The notes under the pieces: model-generated
The model's database searches: none
Told to the model about the DNA's origin: nothing
Seen by the model: only the letters and a program-made list of their open reading frames with translations
Source of the DNA: Mesorhizobium sp. ZC-5
GTDB lineage: Bacteria > Pseudomonadota > Alphaproteobacteria > Rhizobiales > Rhizobiaceae
Assembly (NCBI RefSeq): GCF_025753855.1
Contig: NZ_JAOWPT010000018.1
Location: 36,290-100,289 of the forward strand
DNA length: 64,000 nt
Direction: 5' to 3'
In this document: positions 3,280 through 8,132 of the stretch, piece after piece
Layout of the letters: each line of letters begins with the position of its first letter
How positions within the stretch are numbered: position 1 is the first letter of the stretch
Translations under genes and position numbers: made by a program

Positions 3280-3724
3280 GACGCCCGGCATTTTTGCTCG
3301 GAAGTTCAGAGCGGCGGCCTGAACCACGCCCTGTTTCGAACCTCTCCATTTAACCCCTCTCCGTCTCGCTGACGGCGGCTTTGCCGCTGGGCTCGACACC
3401 TCTCCCCAGAGGGGCAGTGCAATCGCATATGGAAACTTCGCTATTCAGTAGCAACAGCCACCAAGGCCGCATTCGACCTCATTGTTGTCGTTCACCCAGC
3501 TGCACCAATCACCCGCATCCAGCATAGCCGCAACTCAATATGGGCGATCGGAACGGAGCTACACGGGCATCATGACCAGGGATTGCGTCCTGGCAGAATT
3601 GCCCTGGTACGCGCCTGAACTTGAAATCAGCCATTCGAAAATCCGTTGTTTGAGTACGAGCTACGGCTGGCCATATTTGCGGAAGTGAGAGTACATCTGG
3701 GAAAGGGTCGCGCGGAGTGAGTAC
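3280..3724. other. Gene-poor stretch starting the accessory island
   Basis: About 445 bases between the fae-like gene and an orphan membrane protein. It contains a degenerate palindromic repeat near 3353-3416 (CCCCTCTCC ... GGCGGCTTTGCCGC ... CCTCTCCCCAGAGGGGC). After about 3430 the base composition becomes visibly less GC-rich than in the flanking genes. A 68-codon open frame at 3482-3688 has no recognisable protein features, so I do not call it. Confidence 0.5.
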
Positions 3725-4336
3725 ATGTGTATGCTAGATCATCGATCGAGGTGGAGTGTCCTGCGGCGATTAGGAAACTCGCCCGTTGCTACGGCGACTA
3801 TTGCGGTGCCCTTGGTAGGTTACCTCCTGCTCTTCAACGCGGAAATCGTAAAATATCTTAGCCTACATACTGATTTTTGCCGGGCGGCCAATTGTGCTCC
3901 ATCGCTGCGGCTTCTGTTGCTCTATCTCGGCGCCTGTTCGATCGCGATAGGTGCGGCGCTGTACGGCCTGAGATGTCCGTCACTCATTAAAAAGTACGAT
4001 TCGGCCGCCGCGTTTTTTGACGCTGAGAAAGCCTATTTCAGCCAACCTCGAAACCACGACTATCTGCTAAAACTAATCAAATTAGGAACTGAGACCGAGC
4101 CGCTTGCTAACGACGCGCCGGAATTTAGCTACGACGGCGCAAGACGGGATATCGATCCGAATAGCTTGGCGGATCCAATGGGAGAGCTATACCGGCTCCT
4201 CAATGTCTCGCATCCGAAAAGCAGGCGGGCCGTACTCCTATCCTATAGCCTCGGCATCTTGTTGCTTCTTGTCCCCAGCGTGATGACGTTCGGCCAGGTG
4301 TTAGCGGCCTTCAATTGGGGCAGATCAGCCTTGTAG
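3725..4336 (+). CDS. Orphan membrane protein, unknown function
   Basis: 203 residues, not recognised. Two hydrophobic segments lie near the N-terminus (about 24-44 and 65-85) and one near the C-terminus (about 170-192), with a polar middle (about 90-165) carrying charged residues and DPMGELYRLLNVSHP. This suggests a membrane protein with a cytoplasmic loop and both ends anchored. GGAG lies a few bases before the ATG. Codon use is less GC-biased than in neighbours (many AAA, TTA and ATA codons), suggesting acquired DNA. It sits alone between repeats and the IS1595-type element. Confidence 0.6.
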   Translation: MCMLDHRSRWSVLRRLGNSPVATATIAVPLVGYLLLFNAEIVKYLSLHTDFCRAANCAPSLRLLLLYLGACSIAIGAALYGLRCPSLIKKYDSAAAFFDAEKAYFSQPRNHDYLLKLIKLGTETEPLANDAPEFSYDGARRDIDPNSLADPMGELYRLLNVSHPKSRRAVLLSYSLGILLLLVPSVMTFGQVLAAFNWGRSAL

Positions 4337-4507
4337 CTTCCGGTATGTTCGATCTGGTCGTTAACTGAATGGCCGCTTCCCCAACTTAGGCGCTTAGAAG
4401 CAGCCCAGCAGGAATCCACCCCATTGCGGCCATTGGCTGACCGTGATGCAGACCTGGTAGCGGCTGCTACCTAATGGCGGGAAACTTGAAGCTCGCGGTC
4501 GGCTTCA

Positions 4508-4642
4508 TACCCCCACCCCTCCCCTCAAGGGGGAGGGGGACTGTTAACCGCCGTTTCGATCGGAAACCTCCAAGGTTGGCGGTGTAAGGACAGCCCGCCA
4601 AGTCCCGCTCCCCCTTGAGGGGAGGGGTTAGGGGTGGGGGTA
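4508..4642. repeat. Palindromic repeat, family A, copy 1
   Basis: About 135 bases with long inverted arms: it opens with TACCCCCACCCCTCCCC-TCAAGG and closes with CCTTGAGG-GGAGGGGTTAGGGGTGGGGGTA. The middle is less symmetric. A second copy with the same ends is at 57371-57513. Such elements are common between genes in rhizobia and presumably move or spread without their own enzyme. Confidence 0.85.
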
Positions 4643-4698
4643 AATTCCTGACCAAGGGGCGAGGAACCCAGGTTGGACCAGCGCTTGCGTTTCAGAAC

Positions 4699-4750
4699 TG
4701 GAGTTTCTCGCCCTTTGGGGCGAGGTGGCCCGAAGGGTCGGAGAGGGGTC
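4699..4750. repeat. Palindromic repeat, family B, short copy
   Basis: Sequence of the type CTCGCCC-TTTGG-GGCGAG followed by GTGGCCCGAAGGGTCGGAGAGGGG. Related wording occurs near 3353-3416 and 38268-38392. It lies just left of the transposable element. Confidence 0.55.
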
Positions 4751-4788
4751 ATAGCAAGCAGACCGGCTCGATATGTCGGCATCCCGTC

Positions 4789-4823
4789 AGGAATAATTTC
4801 CTAATTATATACGTGACAAAGTA
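4789..4823 (+). repeat. Left end of the IS1595-type element: direct repeat plus inverted repeat
   Basis: Positions 4789-4802 read AGGAATAATTTCCT, nearly palindromic, and recur as GGGAATAATTTCCT at 7577-7590 on the same strand. Positions 4803-4823 begin AATTATATAC and end GACAAAGTA; their reverse complement is found at 7556-7576 with one mismatch (G at 4813 against T). Confidence 0.88.
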
Positions 4824-4939
4824 TGGGTGATTCGGTTAGAGTGGCATTTGCGTGACAGGCCGGGTTTTTGGAATTGGAGTATGCGTTTTCGCCTAATTGG
4901 CGGTTCACAAATTTGCGGACTCGCATATTGTGGAAAGAA

Positions 4940-5009
4940 TGGAGACGGTGGGGATCGAACCCACGGGAGCAAGGTCGGAAATCTAGCCGCCCGTAACCAT
5001 ACCGTCCCC
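4940..5009 (-). other. tRNA-like sequence, probably degenerate or unusual
   Basis: On the minus strand the sequence from 5009 begins GGGGACG and ends at 4941 with CGTCTCC followed by A. These seven-base arms pair fully (one G-U). Directly before the 3' arm is a perfect T-arm: stem GTGGG, loop TTCGATC, stem CCCAC. The middle 38 bases do not give a standard D-arm or a clean five-pair anticodon stem; a CGG-loop-CCG hairpin around CTAGATTT is the best seen. It could be a decayed tRNA, a tRNA mimic, or a highly divergent tRNA. A hairpin (CTGCCCCG/CGGGGCAG) lies just upstream, near 5017-5040. Confidence 0.45.
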
Positions 5010-5240
5010 AATACGACTGCCCCGCGATGGATCGGGGCAGAAGGCACCCGCAAAGTTGCCGGGTACGCCAGCCAGCGAGCCGATTGGGCGGGTGTGTGCG
5101 CCGTAGGAAGTGATCGCACCCCTCCATCGCGCTGGCCTAACAACCAAAGGCGACTCGTTTTGGTGCGTCAAGGATTCGTTTCTGGTAAGAAACGTGACCC
5201 CAATATCTTGTGTGTCACTAATGTGGATAACGGGTAGAAC

Positions 5241-5390
5241 ATGCCGGAATCCGACGAAAAGAAGTTCAACGAGACGCTAAAGCGGATGCTTAAGACGCCG
5301 CCGACGCCGCACGCTGAAGGCGCAAAATCAAAAAAGGGAAAAGCTACACCGAAAAAGAAGAAGCCCGCACGTGGCGGGCTTCAAGGCTAA
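5241..5390 (+). CDS. Small basic protein, unknown function
   Basis: 49 residues starting MPESDEKKFNETLKRMLKTP with a Lys-rich tail (KGKATPKKKKPARGG). I recall similar small proteins with a KF-x-ETLKRML-x-TPP-x-PH core as common in Rhizobiales, which supports a real gene; function is unknown. It reads toward the antitoxin-like gene on the other strand, and the two coding ends overlap by four bases (5387-5390). It lies inside the IS1595-type element. No strong ribosome-binding site was seen. Confidence 0.6.
   Translation: MPESDEKKFNETLKRMLKTPPTPHAEGAKSKKGKATPKKKKPARGGLQG
5361..5381 (-). terminator. Candidate Rho-independent terminator in the overlapping 3' ends
   Basis: Perfect 8-bp stem AAGCCCGC/GCGGGCTT with a five-base loop. 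On the minus strand it is followed by CTTCTTTTTC, so it fits termination of the toxin-antitoxin transcript. It lies within the last codons of the small plus-strand gene. Confidence 0.65.
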
Positions 5391-5887
5391 GCGCATAACC
5401 GCGCTTCTTTGTGATGTTCATCCTCCAAAGCGGCATTTGTGTCGCGAAGGATTTCGGCCTGACGAACAACCTCATCCGAGATTTGTTTTCGCCCACGCAA
5501 CCATTTAGCAACGTTGGTCCAATCCCAAAGAGGACTGTCTGTCGTCACTCGCGCTATGGGCAGGGGAAAGTCCTTGCCCCTTTCGCCCTTAGCGTACTGC
5601 GTAATTGCAGCGCGCGTCAGTCCGGCCCGCTCGGCTATCTCGGAAAGGCTAACGAGATAGTCTGGCTCGACACGTTCCACAGATGCTCCGGCAGCCTTAA
5701 CGTTCTCCACAGCCGAGTTTACAGCATCCACTAGCGTTTCCGCTTGGCGCGCAAACTGGAGAATGATGGCGCCTCGCGCAAAAGCGATGGTCGCATCATC
5801 ACAACCGGCTTCGAAAAACCGGTCTTCGAAATCGTCCGCCTCATGGTCTAGTCCCGAGGCTACAATCGAAAATTCAAACGTCTTCAT
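5387..5887 (-). CDS. Antitoxin-like protein with helix-turn-helix domain (HicB-like role)
   Basis: 166 residues. The N-terminal ~70 (MKTFEFSIVASGLDHEADDF...) form a small alpha/beta domain reminiscent of HicB-like partners. Residues ~80-110 hold a helix-turn-helix, LSEIAERAGLTRAAITQYAKG, and the tail contains SPLWDWTNVAKWLRGRK. The upstream gene overlaps its start by four bases (ATGA), so the two are translationally coupled. By analogy with HicAB, this protein would bind the toxin and repress the operon. The assignment rests on architecture and pairing; a plain regulator is the alternative. Confidence 0.65.
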   Translation of the reverse strand: MKTFEFSIVASGLDHEADDFEDRFFEAGCDDATIAFARGAIILQFARQAETLVDAVNSAVENVKAAGASVERVEPDYLVSLSEIAERAGLTRAAITQYAKGERGKDFPLPIARVTTDSPLWDWTNVAKWLRGRKQISDEVVRQAEILRDTNAALEDEHHKEARLCA

Positions 5888-6135
5888 TCTTCGCCTCCTT
5901 CCTTAACGTGAGCGCATCGTTTCCCGTGGCCAATCAATTGCTTTGCATGGTCTTCCGGCATTTTGGGTGTAGACCAAACCGATACCTGGCAACCGGATCG
6001 ATCGTGTTGTGCACACAGCATTCGACCCCACGCATGGGCACTTTTGCCGGGCTTTTTCCATGACCATCCAAGGCTTTCAAGATGAGATACAGCGGCCTCA
6101 ATTTCCTTATTAGGATGCTTGGGGCGGGCACTCAT
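5884..6135 (-). CDS. HicA-like toxin candidate
   Basis: 83 residues, starting MSARPKHPNKEIEAAVSHLE, then GWSWKKPGKSAHAWGRMLC. The opening helix, GW turn, basic strand and a single central His (HAWGR) resemble the dsRNA-binding-like fold of HicA mRNA interferases, where one His is catalytic. The rest (STPKMPEDHAKQLIGHGKRC) is less typical. It is the first gene of a two-gene unit with a four-base overlap, the classical toxin-first HicAB order. Toxicity is inferred, not shown. Confidence 0.6.
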   Translation of the reverse strand: MSARPKHPNKEIEAAVSHLESLGWSWKKPGKSAHAWGRMLCAQHDRSGCQVSVWSTPKMPEDHAKQLIGHGKRCAHVKEGGEE

Positions 6136-6147
6136 TCGACCGTCACC

Positions 6148-6176
6148 AAAATGGTACGACTGTTAACGGATGTCAA
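6148..6176 (-). promoter_or_regulatory. Candidate promoter of the toxin-antitoxin pair
   Basis: On the minus strand TTGACA (6176-6171) is followed after 17 bases by CATTTT (6153-6148), 12 bases before the toxin ATG, so the transcript would have a very short leader. The -35 is perfect, the -10 weak. Confidence 0.35.
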
Positions 6177-6221
6177 CACTATAGGTTCCGATTCGTGAAT
6201 TTAGCGTGAATTGTCTTTGGG

Positions 6222-6482
6222 TCAGTCAGACAAAAATGGCTTTCCTTGACCCGTAAATTTACTGAATCCGGTGAGGTATTCCCTTGTCCAAGATAGCAAC
6301 TCCAATTCTTGAATCACGTCCCCCTCGGTGTTGTCGCGAAGCTCAGAATATGCCCGGCGTAGCCGTTCTAAAAAACGCTCTTCAAAGGATGGATCTGATT
6401 CATTTAGAGTTTGAACGACGCAAGCAGCGAGGATTGCCACCCCCCTCTTTGCACGATGTAGATCAGTTGTTTGGCCGGTCAT
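6222..6482 (-). CDS. Small unknown protein carried by the element
   Basis: 86 residues, MTGQTTDLHRAKRGVAILAACVVQTL..., mostly predicted helical, with an acidic middle (ESDPSFEERFLERLRRAYSE). No family recognised. The ATG at 6482 is chosen because GGAGGGG lies eight bases upstream; a GTG at 6515 in frame is less likely. It lies between the transposase and the toxin-antitoxin pair, all on the same strand, inside the element. Confidence 0.55.
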   Translation of the reverse strand: MTGQTTDLHRAKRGVAILAACVVQTLNESDPSFEERFLERLRRAYSELRDNTEGDVIQELELLSWTREYLTGFSKFTGQGKPFLSD

Positions 6483-6557
6483 AAAACAGTCCCCTCCAGT
6501 TTTTCGAAGGGACACTAGCTCTTTTTTCGCAGCCTTAGGAGTCGGCGTGCTTTTTGT

Positions 6558-7514
6558 TTAGGCGTGATCGGCTTCACCAATCCGCCGATAGGTCAAACGC
6601 TTTCCTTCGATCATGGCAAGCAACTGGTCGTGGCGCTCGTTGTCTGACACTTTGAGAGCCGTGCGGCGATTGTAGCGGAAATCGAACTCGGCAAGGTAGC
6701 GATGCAAATGTGCTTCGCCGCAATGCTGATAAACGCCGATCATGCCACGCTTGAAAACTGAAAACACGCCTTCAATCGTATTGGTATGGACAACGCGGTC
6801 TGCCTCGTAGCGAACGTATTCGCCGCCAGTGTGCTTGACGGTGGCGTGGTCCGCGAACTCTTTGCCGGTGAAGGTGTAGAAATTGGACTCATCGGTGAAG
6901 AGCGTGGATTTGCGGTCGGCGTTGCGCACCAGAACATCGCGAACAGACGCCGTGGTAGCGCGGTCGACATGGAACATACGGGCTTTGCCGCCACGCTCAA
7001 CCAGAGCCACGATTGAGCGCTTGGAAGAGTTGGAAGGCTTGCCGCGAATGGTTCGTTTCTTAACCGTATCCTTGGGTCCGAAATAGGTTTCGTCGGCTTC
7101 GACGGTTTTGCCTTCGCCACCCAAAGGACCGGCTGACTTCACGTCCTCCTTCATGGCTTCGCGGATGCGATGAGCCATGAACCAAGCGGTTTTGTAGGTG
7201 ACGCCCAACATGCGGTGGAGCTGGTGCGAGGACATGCCTTTCTTTGACGAGGAAAGCAGGAATGTCGCCAGCAACCACTTGTTCAAGGCAATCTTGGAAC
7301 GCTCGAACACGGTGCCAACGGTAACGGTGAACTGTTCACGGCACTCCATGCAGTTGTACAGGCCGGGGCGATGAGCCTTGCCTTCCATCTTAGTGATGCG
7401 GGTTGCGTCGGCGTTGCCGCAATGCGGGCAGTTAGGGCCATGCGGCCAACGCTGCGCTTCAAGATGAATGCGGGCTGCGTCTGCGTCCTGAAAGATTGCG
7501 TGGTCGAGGTTCAT
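6558..7514 (-). CDS. IS1595-family transposase (ISXO2-like)
   Basis: 318 residues. An N-terminal zinc ribbon is visible as CPHCGNAD...CMECREQF (CxxC pairs near residues 29-58), followed by a helix-turn-helix-like segment (SSHQLHRMLGVTYKTAWFMAHR) and the ISXO2 catalytic domain: VEADETYFG (first acidic residue), LFTDESNFY (second), and HTNTIEGVFSVFKRG (Asn/Glu position). It appears intact from ATG (CGGAG upstream) to stop, so the element could be active. It sits near the right inverted repeat. Confidence 0.93.
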   Translation of the reverse strand: MNLDHAIFQDADAARIHLEAQRWPHGPNCPHCGNADATRITKMEGKAHRPGLYNCMECREQFTVTVGTVFERSKIALNKWLLATFLLSSSKKGMSSHQLHRMLGVTYKTAWFMAHRIREAMKEDVKSAGPLGGEGKTVEADETYFGPKDTVKKRTIRGKPSNSSKRSIVALVERGGKARMFHVDRATTASVRDVLVRNADRKSTLFTDESNFYTFTGKEFADHATVKHTGGEYVRYEADRVVHTNTIEGVFSVFKRGMIGVYQHCGEAHLHRYLAEFDFRYNRRTALKVSDNERHDQLLAMIEGKRLTYRRIGEADHA

Positions 7515-7555
7515 TGAAGTTCGCTCCGTTGTCCTTTTTATCGGACATTCGGGCG

Positions 7556-7590
7556 TACTTTGTCAAGTATATAATTGGGAATAATTTCCT
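7556..7590 (-). repeat. Right end of the IS1595-type element: inverted repeat plus direct repeat
   Basis: Positions 7556-7576 are the inverted copy of 4803-4823 (20/21). Positions 7577-7590 are the direct-repeat partner of 4789-4802. The transposase start codon is 42 bases inside this end. Confidence 0.88.
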
Positions 7591-7655
7591 CAAATCAATC
7601 CACCCCCTCTCGGCCTCCCTCATAATAAACGCCATGTAACCGGAGCGAGGCGGAG

Positions 7656-8132
7656 ATGGACTGGAGCGCGGCGATCGAGAGGGAAAGGCAGGTGCTGAAG
7701 CGCATCGTCGCACTGTTCTGCGCCCTCGCCGCCCTGTGCGACCGCATCTGCACCCGGTCGCGTCCGGCGCGGCGCCTTGTCCTGTGGATTTTGCGACCGG
7801 CCGAAGCCGCCGCGCTGGAGCGCATCGCCGAGGCCGGGCCGGCGCCTTTGGCCCTGCTGTGGCAGCGCGGCGACAGTCTCGCCGAGGCCAGGCGGCTTTC
7901 CCGCTGCTTCCGGGCGGCGGCGCGTGCGGTGAAGCGCGAAATCGAGGCACTGGACAGGTGCGGGGCCGGCGCCATGCGCCGCGGCTGCGCGGCTTTATTC
8001 GGAGCTTCGTTCGGCCGCCGCTTCGCCGGCCGCGATCGTCCGCTCCGCAACCTCGCCCCGGCAACAGCCGGGCTGTCGCGCTACCCTTCCGCACCTGGGC
8101 CGCCGATGCCGGAACGCCTCGACACGTCCTGA
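7656..8132 (+). CDS. Conserved hypothetical protein of Rhizobiales
   Basis: 158 residues, rich in Arg and Ala: MDWSAAIERERQVLKRIVALFCALAALC, then two helical segments and RRLVLWILRPAEAAALERI. I recall similar MDW-start proteins in rhizobia, but no function. GGAG sites precede the ATG. The right end of the IS1595-type element lies 65 bases upstream, so the insertion may have altered this gene's promoter. Confidence 0.6.
   Translation: MDWSAAIERERQVLKRIVALFCALAALCDRICTRSRPARRLVLWILRPAEAAALERIAEAGPAPLALLWQRGDSLAEARRLSRCFRAAARAVKREIEALDRCGAGAMRRGCAALFGASFGRRFAGRDRPLRNLAPATAGLSRYPSAPGPPMPERLDTS

Follow-up and report, generated by a model that had tools for sequence, protein, structure and literature searches.

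A Mesorhizobium transposon of the IS1595 family carrying a structured RNA with a tRNA-like domain

We analyzed a 64,000-nucleotide stretch of contig NZ_JAOWPT010000018.1 of Mesorhizobium sp. ZC-5 (here called the window) and identified in it a complete transposon of the IS1595 family, 2780 bp long, at positions 4800 to 7579. The transposon belongs to a Mesorhizobium-centered clade of that family, and its most unusual part is a tRNA-like RNA. The conserved parts of the group are the transposase, a basic protein of ~50 to 75 amino acids with a FNETLKRMLKTPP motif and, in one clade, a divergent RNA of ~200 nt. Covariation and conservation among the RNA copies show that a pseudoknotted 5′ domain precedes a tRNA-like domain bearing an alanine identity set, and comparison of complete elements shows insertion into AGG-N8-CCT with an 8-bp duplication. 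We consider it likely that these are transposons with a conserved transposase, a basic protein, a clade-specific tRNA-like RNA, and swapped cargo and that the RNA is processed and alanylated by the host. Related jumping genes in soil-type bacteria carry this RNA as well. No such RNA on an insertion sequence was found in the literature searched, with most subscription papers beyond reach, and a transposon-borne folded RNA with a tRNA-like tip has apparently not been described so far. The RNA in the window has the following parts.

4938..5138, minus strand: structured RNA of ~200 nt, 5′ end placed at about 5138, with covariation and with 202.6 bits under covariance model R1, of which this sequence is itself a member
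5136-5130 with 5077-5071 (P1), P2, 5069-5043 (P3), and 5040-5017 (P4), minus strand: helices of the RNA, followed by the tRNA-like domain
5130-5123 with 5031-5024, minus strand: pseudoknot
4940..5009 (U-1 at 5010), minus strand: tRNA-like domain from G1 to A73, with a 7-bp acceptor containing G3.U70, a D-arm, a T-arm, and no canonical anticodon arm

Structure and copies of the RNA

An initial annotation of this DNA had listed a tRNA-like sequence as one passenger among several. The sequence is there, but it is part of a larger structured RNA, whose 3′ domain it forms. ARAGORN called no tRNA in the window. Its default calls overlapped the RNA at two loci, as tRNA-Leu in L006 and tRNA-Gly in L009, and at none of the other nine loci scanned; such conflicting labels are to be expected when a domain has no canonical anticodon arm. 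No Rfam 15 family matched the RNA above threshold. The Rfam model of transfer-messenger RNA (tmRNA) matched the window RNA over its full length with 40.0 bits (E value, 7.5e-14), short of the gathering score of 47, and the window RNA has 21 nt where the model has 316. When 11 loci holding copies were scanned with Rfam at an E value of 0.01, the two matches returned were both subthreshold tmRNA (40.8 and 24.6 bits). The window copy (L052) went unreported in that scan; hence, its filters lose such matches.

R1 was built from an alignment of nine copies. Run with stricter filters on 395 genomes of the family, it gave 11 matches at 66.9 to 202.6 bits, the next one listed having 39.8 bits; many matches from 39.8 bits down covered only positions 122 to 203, the pattern to be expected of ordinary tRNAs. 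Stretches found by pattern scans of the GTDB genome set (55) and IMG/VR (4) were rescored with R1, which yielded eight clear matches in the 59 sources. Four of these were known copies and four were new: L115 from Chelativorans multitrophicus, L132 from Mesorhizobium WSM3626, and L138 and L139 from IMG/VR. A ninth stretch (L101) scored 16.8 bits. Among 397 genomes of the order, R1 gave four matches at 1e-12, one of them new (G633; 82.6 bits). The total is 16 copies, 15 in or near the family of the window and one (G633) in another family. A transposase lies beside 12 of the 16; three (L043, L044, and L045) have only element ends beside them, and L139 is a remnant without recognized ends. The G633 copy sits in an element with an IS1595-type transposase, an end, and a small open reading frame (ORF). 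The RNA had no match in plasmid and phage collections. One plasmid carries a relative of the transposase (H1, L193) together with the small ORF and both ends of the element, again with no R1 match. In one copy, L045:2807-3101, P4 is separated from the tRNA-like domain by roughly 90 additional nt.

Protein coding was considered for 4938-5138 and rejected. In the window copy, GCGATGG contains an ATG, which 8 of the 15 aligned copies lack (ACG in seven and GCG in one), and the copies differ in length by non-multiples of three.

Pairing was scored in A3, an alignment of 15 copies. Across 41 pairs in seven helices, 96.4% of 614 cells were paired in A3, which was fitted to R1 and so favors the R1 helices; shuffles gave 80.7% (0 of 500 as high), and slid controls gave 41 to 57%. 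Changes on both sides occurred at 23 of the 41 pairs (98 cells). The pseudoknot, which is not part of R1, joins the GCGAYGG strand to the loop of P4. It was 100% paired, and one of its pairs is C-G versus U-A in a ratio of 8 to 7. The main P2 stem, the D arm, and the C arm are not among the 41 scored pairs; hand-chosen D and C arms pair throughout, with shuffles as high in 8 of 2,000 cases for the D arm and in none for the C arm. By eye, GTCGTA might pair with the CCGAC loop in the tRNA-like domain; this pairing was dropped because it is missing in L032, L115, and L139.

In the tRNA-like domain, U-1 is present in 16 of 16 copies, and A73 and G3.U70 are present in 15 of 16 each (15 copies read from printed arms, plus G633, which has all three). 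The T-loop reads TTCRANY or nearly so, and the D-loop contains GG. The place of the anticodon arm is taken by a short stem whose large loop (about 14 to 21 nt, by eye) contains TTCCGAYC in most copies. For tmRNA, the G-U third acceptor pair is described as completely conserved and as a potent determinant for alanyl-tRNA synthetase (AlaRS) (PMC3985003). The window RNA resembles tmRNA (RF00023 and RF01849) in its alanine identity set (G3.U70 and A73), its T-arm, and the lack of an anticodon. The acceptor of the alpha-tmRNA of the same genome reads TGGGGGCG...CGCCTCCACCA, and its helix GGGGGCG/CGCCTCC occurs also in L042, L043, L045, L138, and L139 (both by eye). The window RNA differs from tmRNA in that it has no tag frame between the tRNA-like halves, has a D-arm with a stem, has a separate 5′ pseudoknot domain, and is borne by a transposon. 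The window copy also lacks the cloverleaf with a canonical anticodon arm that defines a tRNA. On these features (no ARAGORN call in the window, the subthreshold tmRNA score, and the alignment), we rejected the assignment as a tRNA or tmRNA proper. RNA domains seem to have been exchanged between copies: L044 has a tRNA-like domain of the window type on a 5′ domain like that of L032.

The transposon, its small basic protein, and its cargo

The limits of the element and its transposase are as follows.

4789..4791: outer target bases AGG
4792..4799: left copy of the 8-bp target duplication, AATAATTT
4800..7579: whole IS1595-family element, 2780 bp
4800..4823, plus strand: left terminal inverted repeat, 24 bp, CCTAATTATATACGTGACAAAGTA
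6558..7514, minus strand: IS1595-family transposase, 318 amino acids, with zinc ribbon and DDE domain
7556..7579, minus strand: right (transposase-side) terminal inverted repeat, 24 bp, 22/24 identical to the left, starting CCC reading inwards
7580..7587: right copy of the 8-bp target duplication, AATAATTT
7588..7590: outer target bases CCT

The initial annotation was correct in describing a delimited IS1595-type element with passengers, and its 21-bp inverted ends (4803-4823 and 7556-7576) were reproduced at 20/21 identity; when 4501-7900 was shuffled 30 times by mononucleotide, the best inverted 21-mers had 16 to 19 matches. The flanking repeats (4789-4802 and 7577-7590) were likewise recovered at 13/14 identity. 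However, these repeats had been taken as a 14-bp target duplication, and we rejected that reading by comparing 24 distinct complete elements, the window element included. The duplication is 8 bp, and each end of the element has to be moved outward by 3 bp, to 4800 and 7579. The 8 bases outside CC[T/C]AATTATATAC were identical on both sides in 22 of the 24 elements. They differed by one base (7/8) in L132 and were not duplicated in one element (L006, the same as L035), which adjoins a second element and still has AGG at its end. In the 23 elements with a duplication, mismatches were found at 1 of 184 positions in the central 8-mer versus 12 of 138 in the adjoining 3 + 3 bases (Fisher P value, 2e-4). 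The elements usually end in CCTAATT..., and the outer bases were AGG in 20 and CCT in 21 of the 23, giving AGG-N8-CCT as the target. Because this target mirrors the CCT/AGG ends of the element itself, the eye sees 14 bp. The earlier explanation, a near-palindromic target, was thus close, although the long duplication that it was meant to explain had been misread.

At full length, the element had one match in its own genome (6.34 Mb in 68 contigs). Some part of it was matched in 133 of 395 genomes of the family at an E value of 0.001; 20 loci from this search were examined first, and further loci were added later. No empty site orthologous to the window insertion was found, the surrounding region being different in two other genomes of the genus.

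The transposase matched PF12762 (2.3e-31), PF12760 (8.2e-12), and NF033547 (9.5e-55), which bears out the claim of an intact ISXO2/IS1595 transposase. A DDE domain, an N-terminal zinc ribbon, terminal inverted repeats, and an 8-bp duplication are all present, and the window group is like the ISXO2-like IS1595 elements in its DDE_Tnp_IS1595 and zinc-ribbon domains, its inverted ends, and its 8-bp, mostly A+T-rich duplication. It differs from them in the conserved small basic protein, the structured tRNA-like RNA, and a target that mirrors the element ends. An 8-bp target duplication is usual for the IS1595 family (PMC8101967 and PMC12561309).

We placed 31 transposases on a midpoint-rooted tree, for which the bootstrap had not settled; L037, which starts inside its own element, is included, and the transposase fragment of L189 was left out. 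RNA-bearing elements were confined to one clade (10 of 16 rows versus 0 of 15 on the other side; support, 100/99). The presence of the RNA required three changes on the tree, compared with 8.5 in shuffles (0 of 500 as low). Given this confinement, the RNA looks like an old and mostly retained part of the clade rather than a chance passenger.

The rest of the element consists of a short intergenic segment, the basic protein gene, and three further ORFs.

5146..5239: segment between the RNA and the small ORF, 94 bp, 91% identical to DNA upstream of nrdJ
5241..5390, plus strand: basic protein of 49 amino acids, motif DEKKFNETLKRMLKTPP, Lys-rich tail; core component of the element group
5387..5887, minus strand: helix-turn-helix (HTH) protein of 166 amino acids, PDC-M06B, also matching phrog_2620 (excisionase/regulator)
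5884..6135, minus strand: protein of 83 amino acids, PDC-M06A
6222..6515, minus strand: ORF of 97 amino acids without an informative match

The ORF of 49 residues reported earlier is present. We compared the ORFs of 15 RNA-bearing stretches, setting aside ORF clusters that overlap the transposase or the RNA. A single protein recurred: basic, mostly 49 to 74 amino acids long, encoded divergently from the RNA, and present in 14 of the 15. It lies inside a longer frame in L035 and is cut short in L044, and L139 has a remnant of it (by eye). It was found in 23 of 390 genomes at an E value of 0.001 and in eight of eight RNA-less elements or element ends examined; the 49-amino-acid protein had no match in plasmid and phage collections. 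Rather than extras, the 49-amino-acid protein and the RNA (the latter in one transposase clade) appear to be conserved components. At L034:2822-3913, a trypsin-like protein (PF13365) carries the small basic protein's TPP motif at its end and has weak LmuA and PDC-S45 matches.

The match of 5146-5239 upstream of nrdJ (assigned by PF08471) lies on another contig of the same genome, and similar matches occur in many relatives. By eye, the segment contains TTGACG between GAATC and GAGTC. It is likely to be a divergent promoter, probably captured by the element, and may be CcrM-linked.

The two adjoining genes at 5387-6135 had been described as a HicAB-like pair. The likeness lies in the combination of a small protein with an HTH protein; however, neither matched Pfam HicA or HicB, and the pair matched both components of PDC-M06, a PADLOC candidate defense system, instead (2.6e-21 for A and 1.6e-29 for B). 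A toxin-antitoxin function remains putative. As in PDC-M06, both components match and adjoin; the difference is that this pair lies inside a transposon, and defense is predicted only. For the 83-amino-acid protein, a weak single-sequence model (pLDDT, predicted local distance difference test score, 58) had the order helix, three strands, helix; this weak model gave no PDB fold match at an E value of 0.001, and a viral scan gave six pattern matches, of which none was confirmed. The PDC-M06 pair is also present in L051, L190, and L191. In L051, from a congener, it lies at 3491-4223 between the terminase and portal genes of a gene-transfer-agent-type cluster, and no transposase was found in that stretch.

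Other elements carry other cargo. L035 has a SocA/Panacea antitoxin domain (2.9e-17), L039 and L132 have an unknown gene pair in common, L042 and L115 have a protein of 159/173 amino acids in common, and the cargo of L138 is one ORF of 159 amino acids. When PADLOC was run on 10 cargo proteins from other elements, only the L034 protein matched, weakly. The annotation had named the same ends without the cargo as a finding that would speak against its description. This is borne out in part, since relatives share the ends and carry other cargo; the gene pair is therefore exchangeable.

Possible roles of the RNA

We propose that the RNA is transcribed from the putative divergent promoter and that host tRNA enzymes, RNase P and those of 3′ processing, would trim it at the junctions U-1/G1 and A73. 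CCA would then be added, a step that is assumed since CCA is rarely encoded (1 of 15 copies), and AlaRS would charge the RNA with alanine. With no normal anticodon arm and no tag frame, the RNA should have no part in decoding or tagging, and charging would make it an alanine acceptor that does neither. Its putative target is most likely the ribosome or else alanyl-RNA, EF-Tu, or the rescue machinery, where it would act in favor of the element, and the small basic protein is possibly its partner. We are more hesitant about a bolder form of this proposal, in which the RNA founds a new class of selfish RNA, an alanine-charged tmRNA mimic that enters ribosome rescue or alanyl-RNA traffic, or competes in it, and with the basic protein as partner protects or times the element; we regard this as speculative and rather doubtful.

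Several observations weigh against a conserved, alanylated RNA of this structure. The main covariation count rests on an alignment fitted to our own model. P3 had no pairs changed on both sides and was 86.7% paired, partly through bulge misalignment, and the first placements of P2 and of the D and C arms failed in several copies. Folded by itself, the tRNA-like stretch has no unusual stability (z, -1.2; equally low values in 23 of 200 shuffles), and its best single-sequence fold is something other than a cloverleaf. Two copies deviate in the identity set, L033 with G3-C70 and the decayed L044 with G73. Positions 74 and 75 are encoded as CC in 11 of 15 copies, and L115 is the only copy that encodes the full CCA. 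Because members without the RNA likewise have intact ends and duplications, transposition does not require it.

The element might be an ordinary IS1595 transposon with passengers, the RNA being one more passenger that protects or regulates cargo. IS1595 elements carrying passenger genes are known, and protein-coding ORFs occupy the place of the RNA in RNA-less relatives. However, the RNA accompanies the PDC-M06 pair, the SocA/Panacea antitoxin domain, unknown genes, and the single ORF of L138; being found with such different cargo, it is not tied to any one of them. We consider a passenger RNA unlikely, though worth serious attention. In eukaryotic MALAT1, a tRNA-like domain serves as a 3′-end maker through an RNase P cut. 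By analogy, RNase P cleavage before G1 could free the pseudoknotted 5′ domain as the working RNA, and the alanine identity would be a by-product of origin. Such a role fits the location of the tRNA-like domain, which closes off a compact 5′ domain at its 3′ end, and the U-1/G1 junction, invariant in 15 of 15 copies. RNase P should not need G3.U70 and A73 to be kept, yet both are, and acceptor pairs 5 (7 cells) and 6 (6 cells) change on both sides. We judge this role improbable.

Two further explanations have little in their favor. If the RNA were a captured host tRNA in functionless decay, the lack of an ARAGORN call in the window, the missing anticodon arm, the unremarkable single-sequence fold, and the occurrence of some copies in decayed elements (L044 and L139) would all be accounted for. 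The compensatory changes across 15 copies, the co-conserved upstream domain, and the retention of the RNA in much of one transposase clade make such decay very improbable. Equally hard to credit is a reduced tmRNA still performing trans-translation. The full-length Rfam match, the two further tmRNA matches, and the alanine identity set point that way; against it stand the scores below the gathering score, the 21 nt in place of 316, and the stem of the D-arm, and no conserved reading frame was seen. Moreover, the host has its own alpha-tmRNA.

Insertion sites and neighboring sequence

The commonest insertion site of the transposon group is the dyad CCGTNACGGYGTCAAGG-N8-CCTAT (L032, L039, L042, L044-L050, L115, L138, L139, and others). 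Allowing one mismatch, we found this motif in 135 of 390 genomes, a count that includes some filled sites; control columns were zero. All 12 motif loci returned had a terminase homologue downstream, and such a homologue lay in the examined stretch at 22 of 38 distinct insertion loci, several of the others having short flanks. L138 has gene-transfer-agent-type genes (the TIGR02217 Rcc01695 family, TIGR02218, and others). Within genera, sites sharing an 8-mer were filled in one genome and uninterrupted in others (G030 filled versus G129, G195, and G298 uninterrupted; likewise, G214 against G152). The conserved dyad upstream of these terminase genes is possibly a promoter element of the gene transfer agent. 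The group also exemplifies a compact transposon that exchanges toxin-antitoxin or defense-like cargo and has struck repeatedly at one conserved site upstream of gene-transfer-agent-type clusters. The window element is not at a CCGTNACGGYGTCAAGG-N8-CCTAT site, and a search of its own genome for the site pattern with three mismatches allowed found none.

Just outside the element, at 4508-4642, is a G/C-rich inverted repeat pair (33 nt; 91%) that is perhaps a dispersed repeat. On the other side, the start (7650-7706) of an ORF at 7656-8132 (158 amino acids) resembles 12 further places in the same genome, and the ORF probably belongs to a multicopy gene family.

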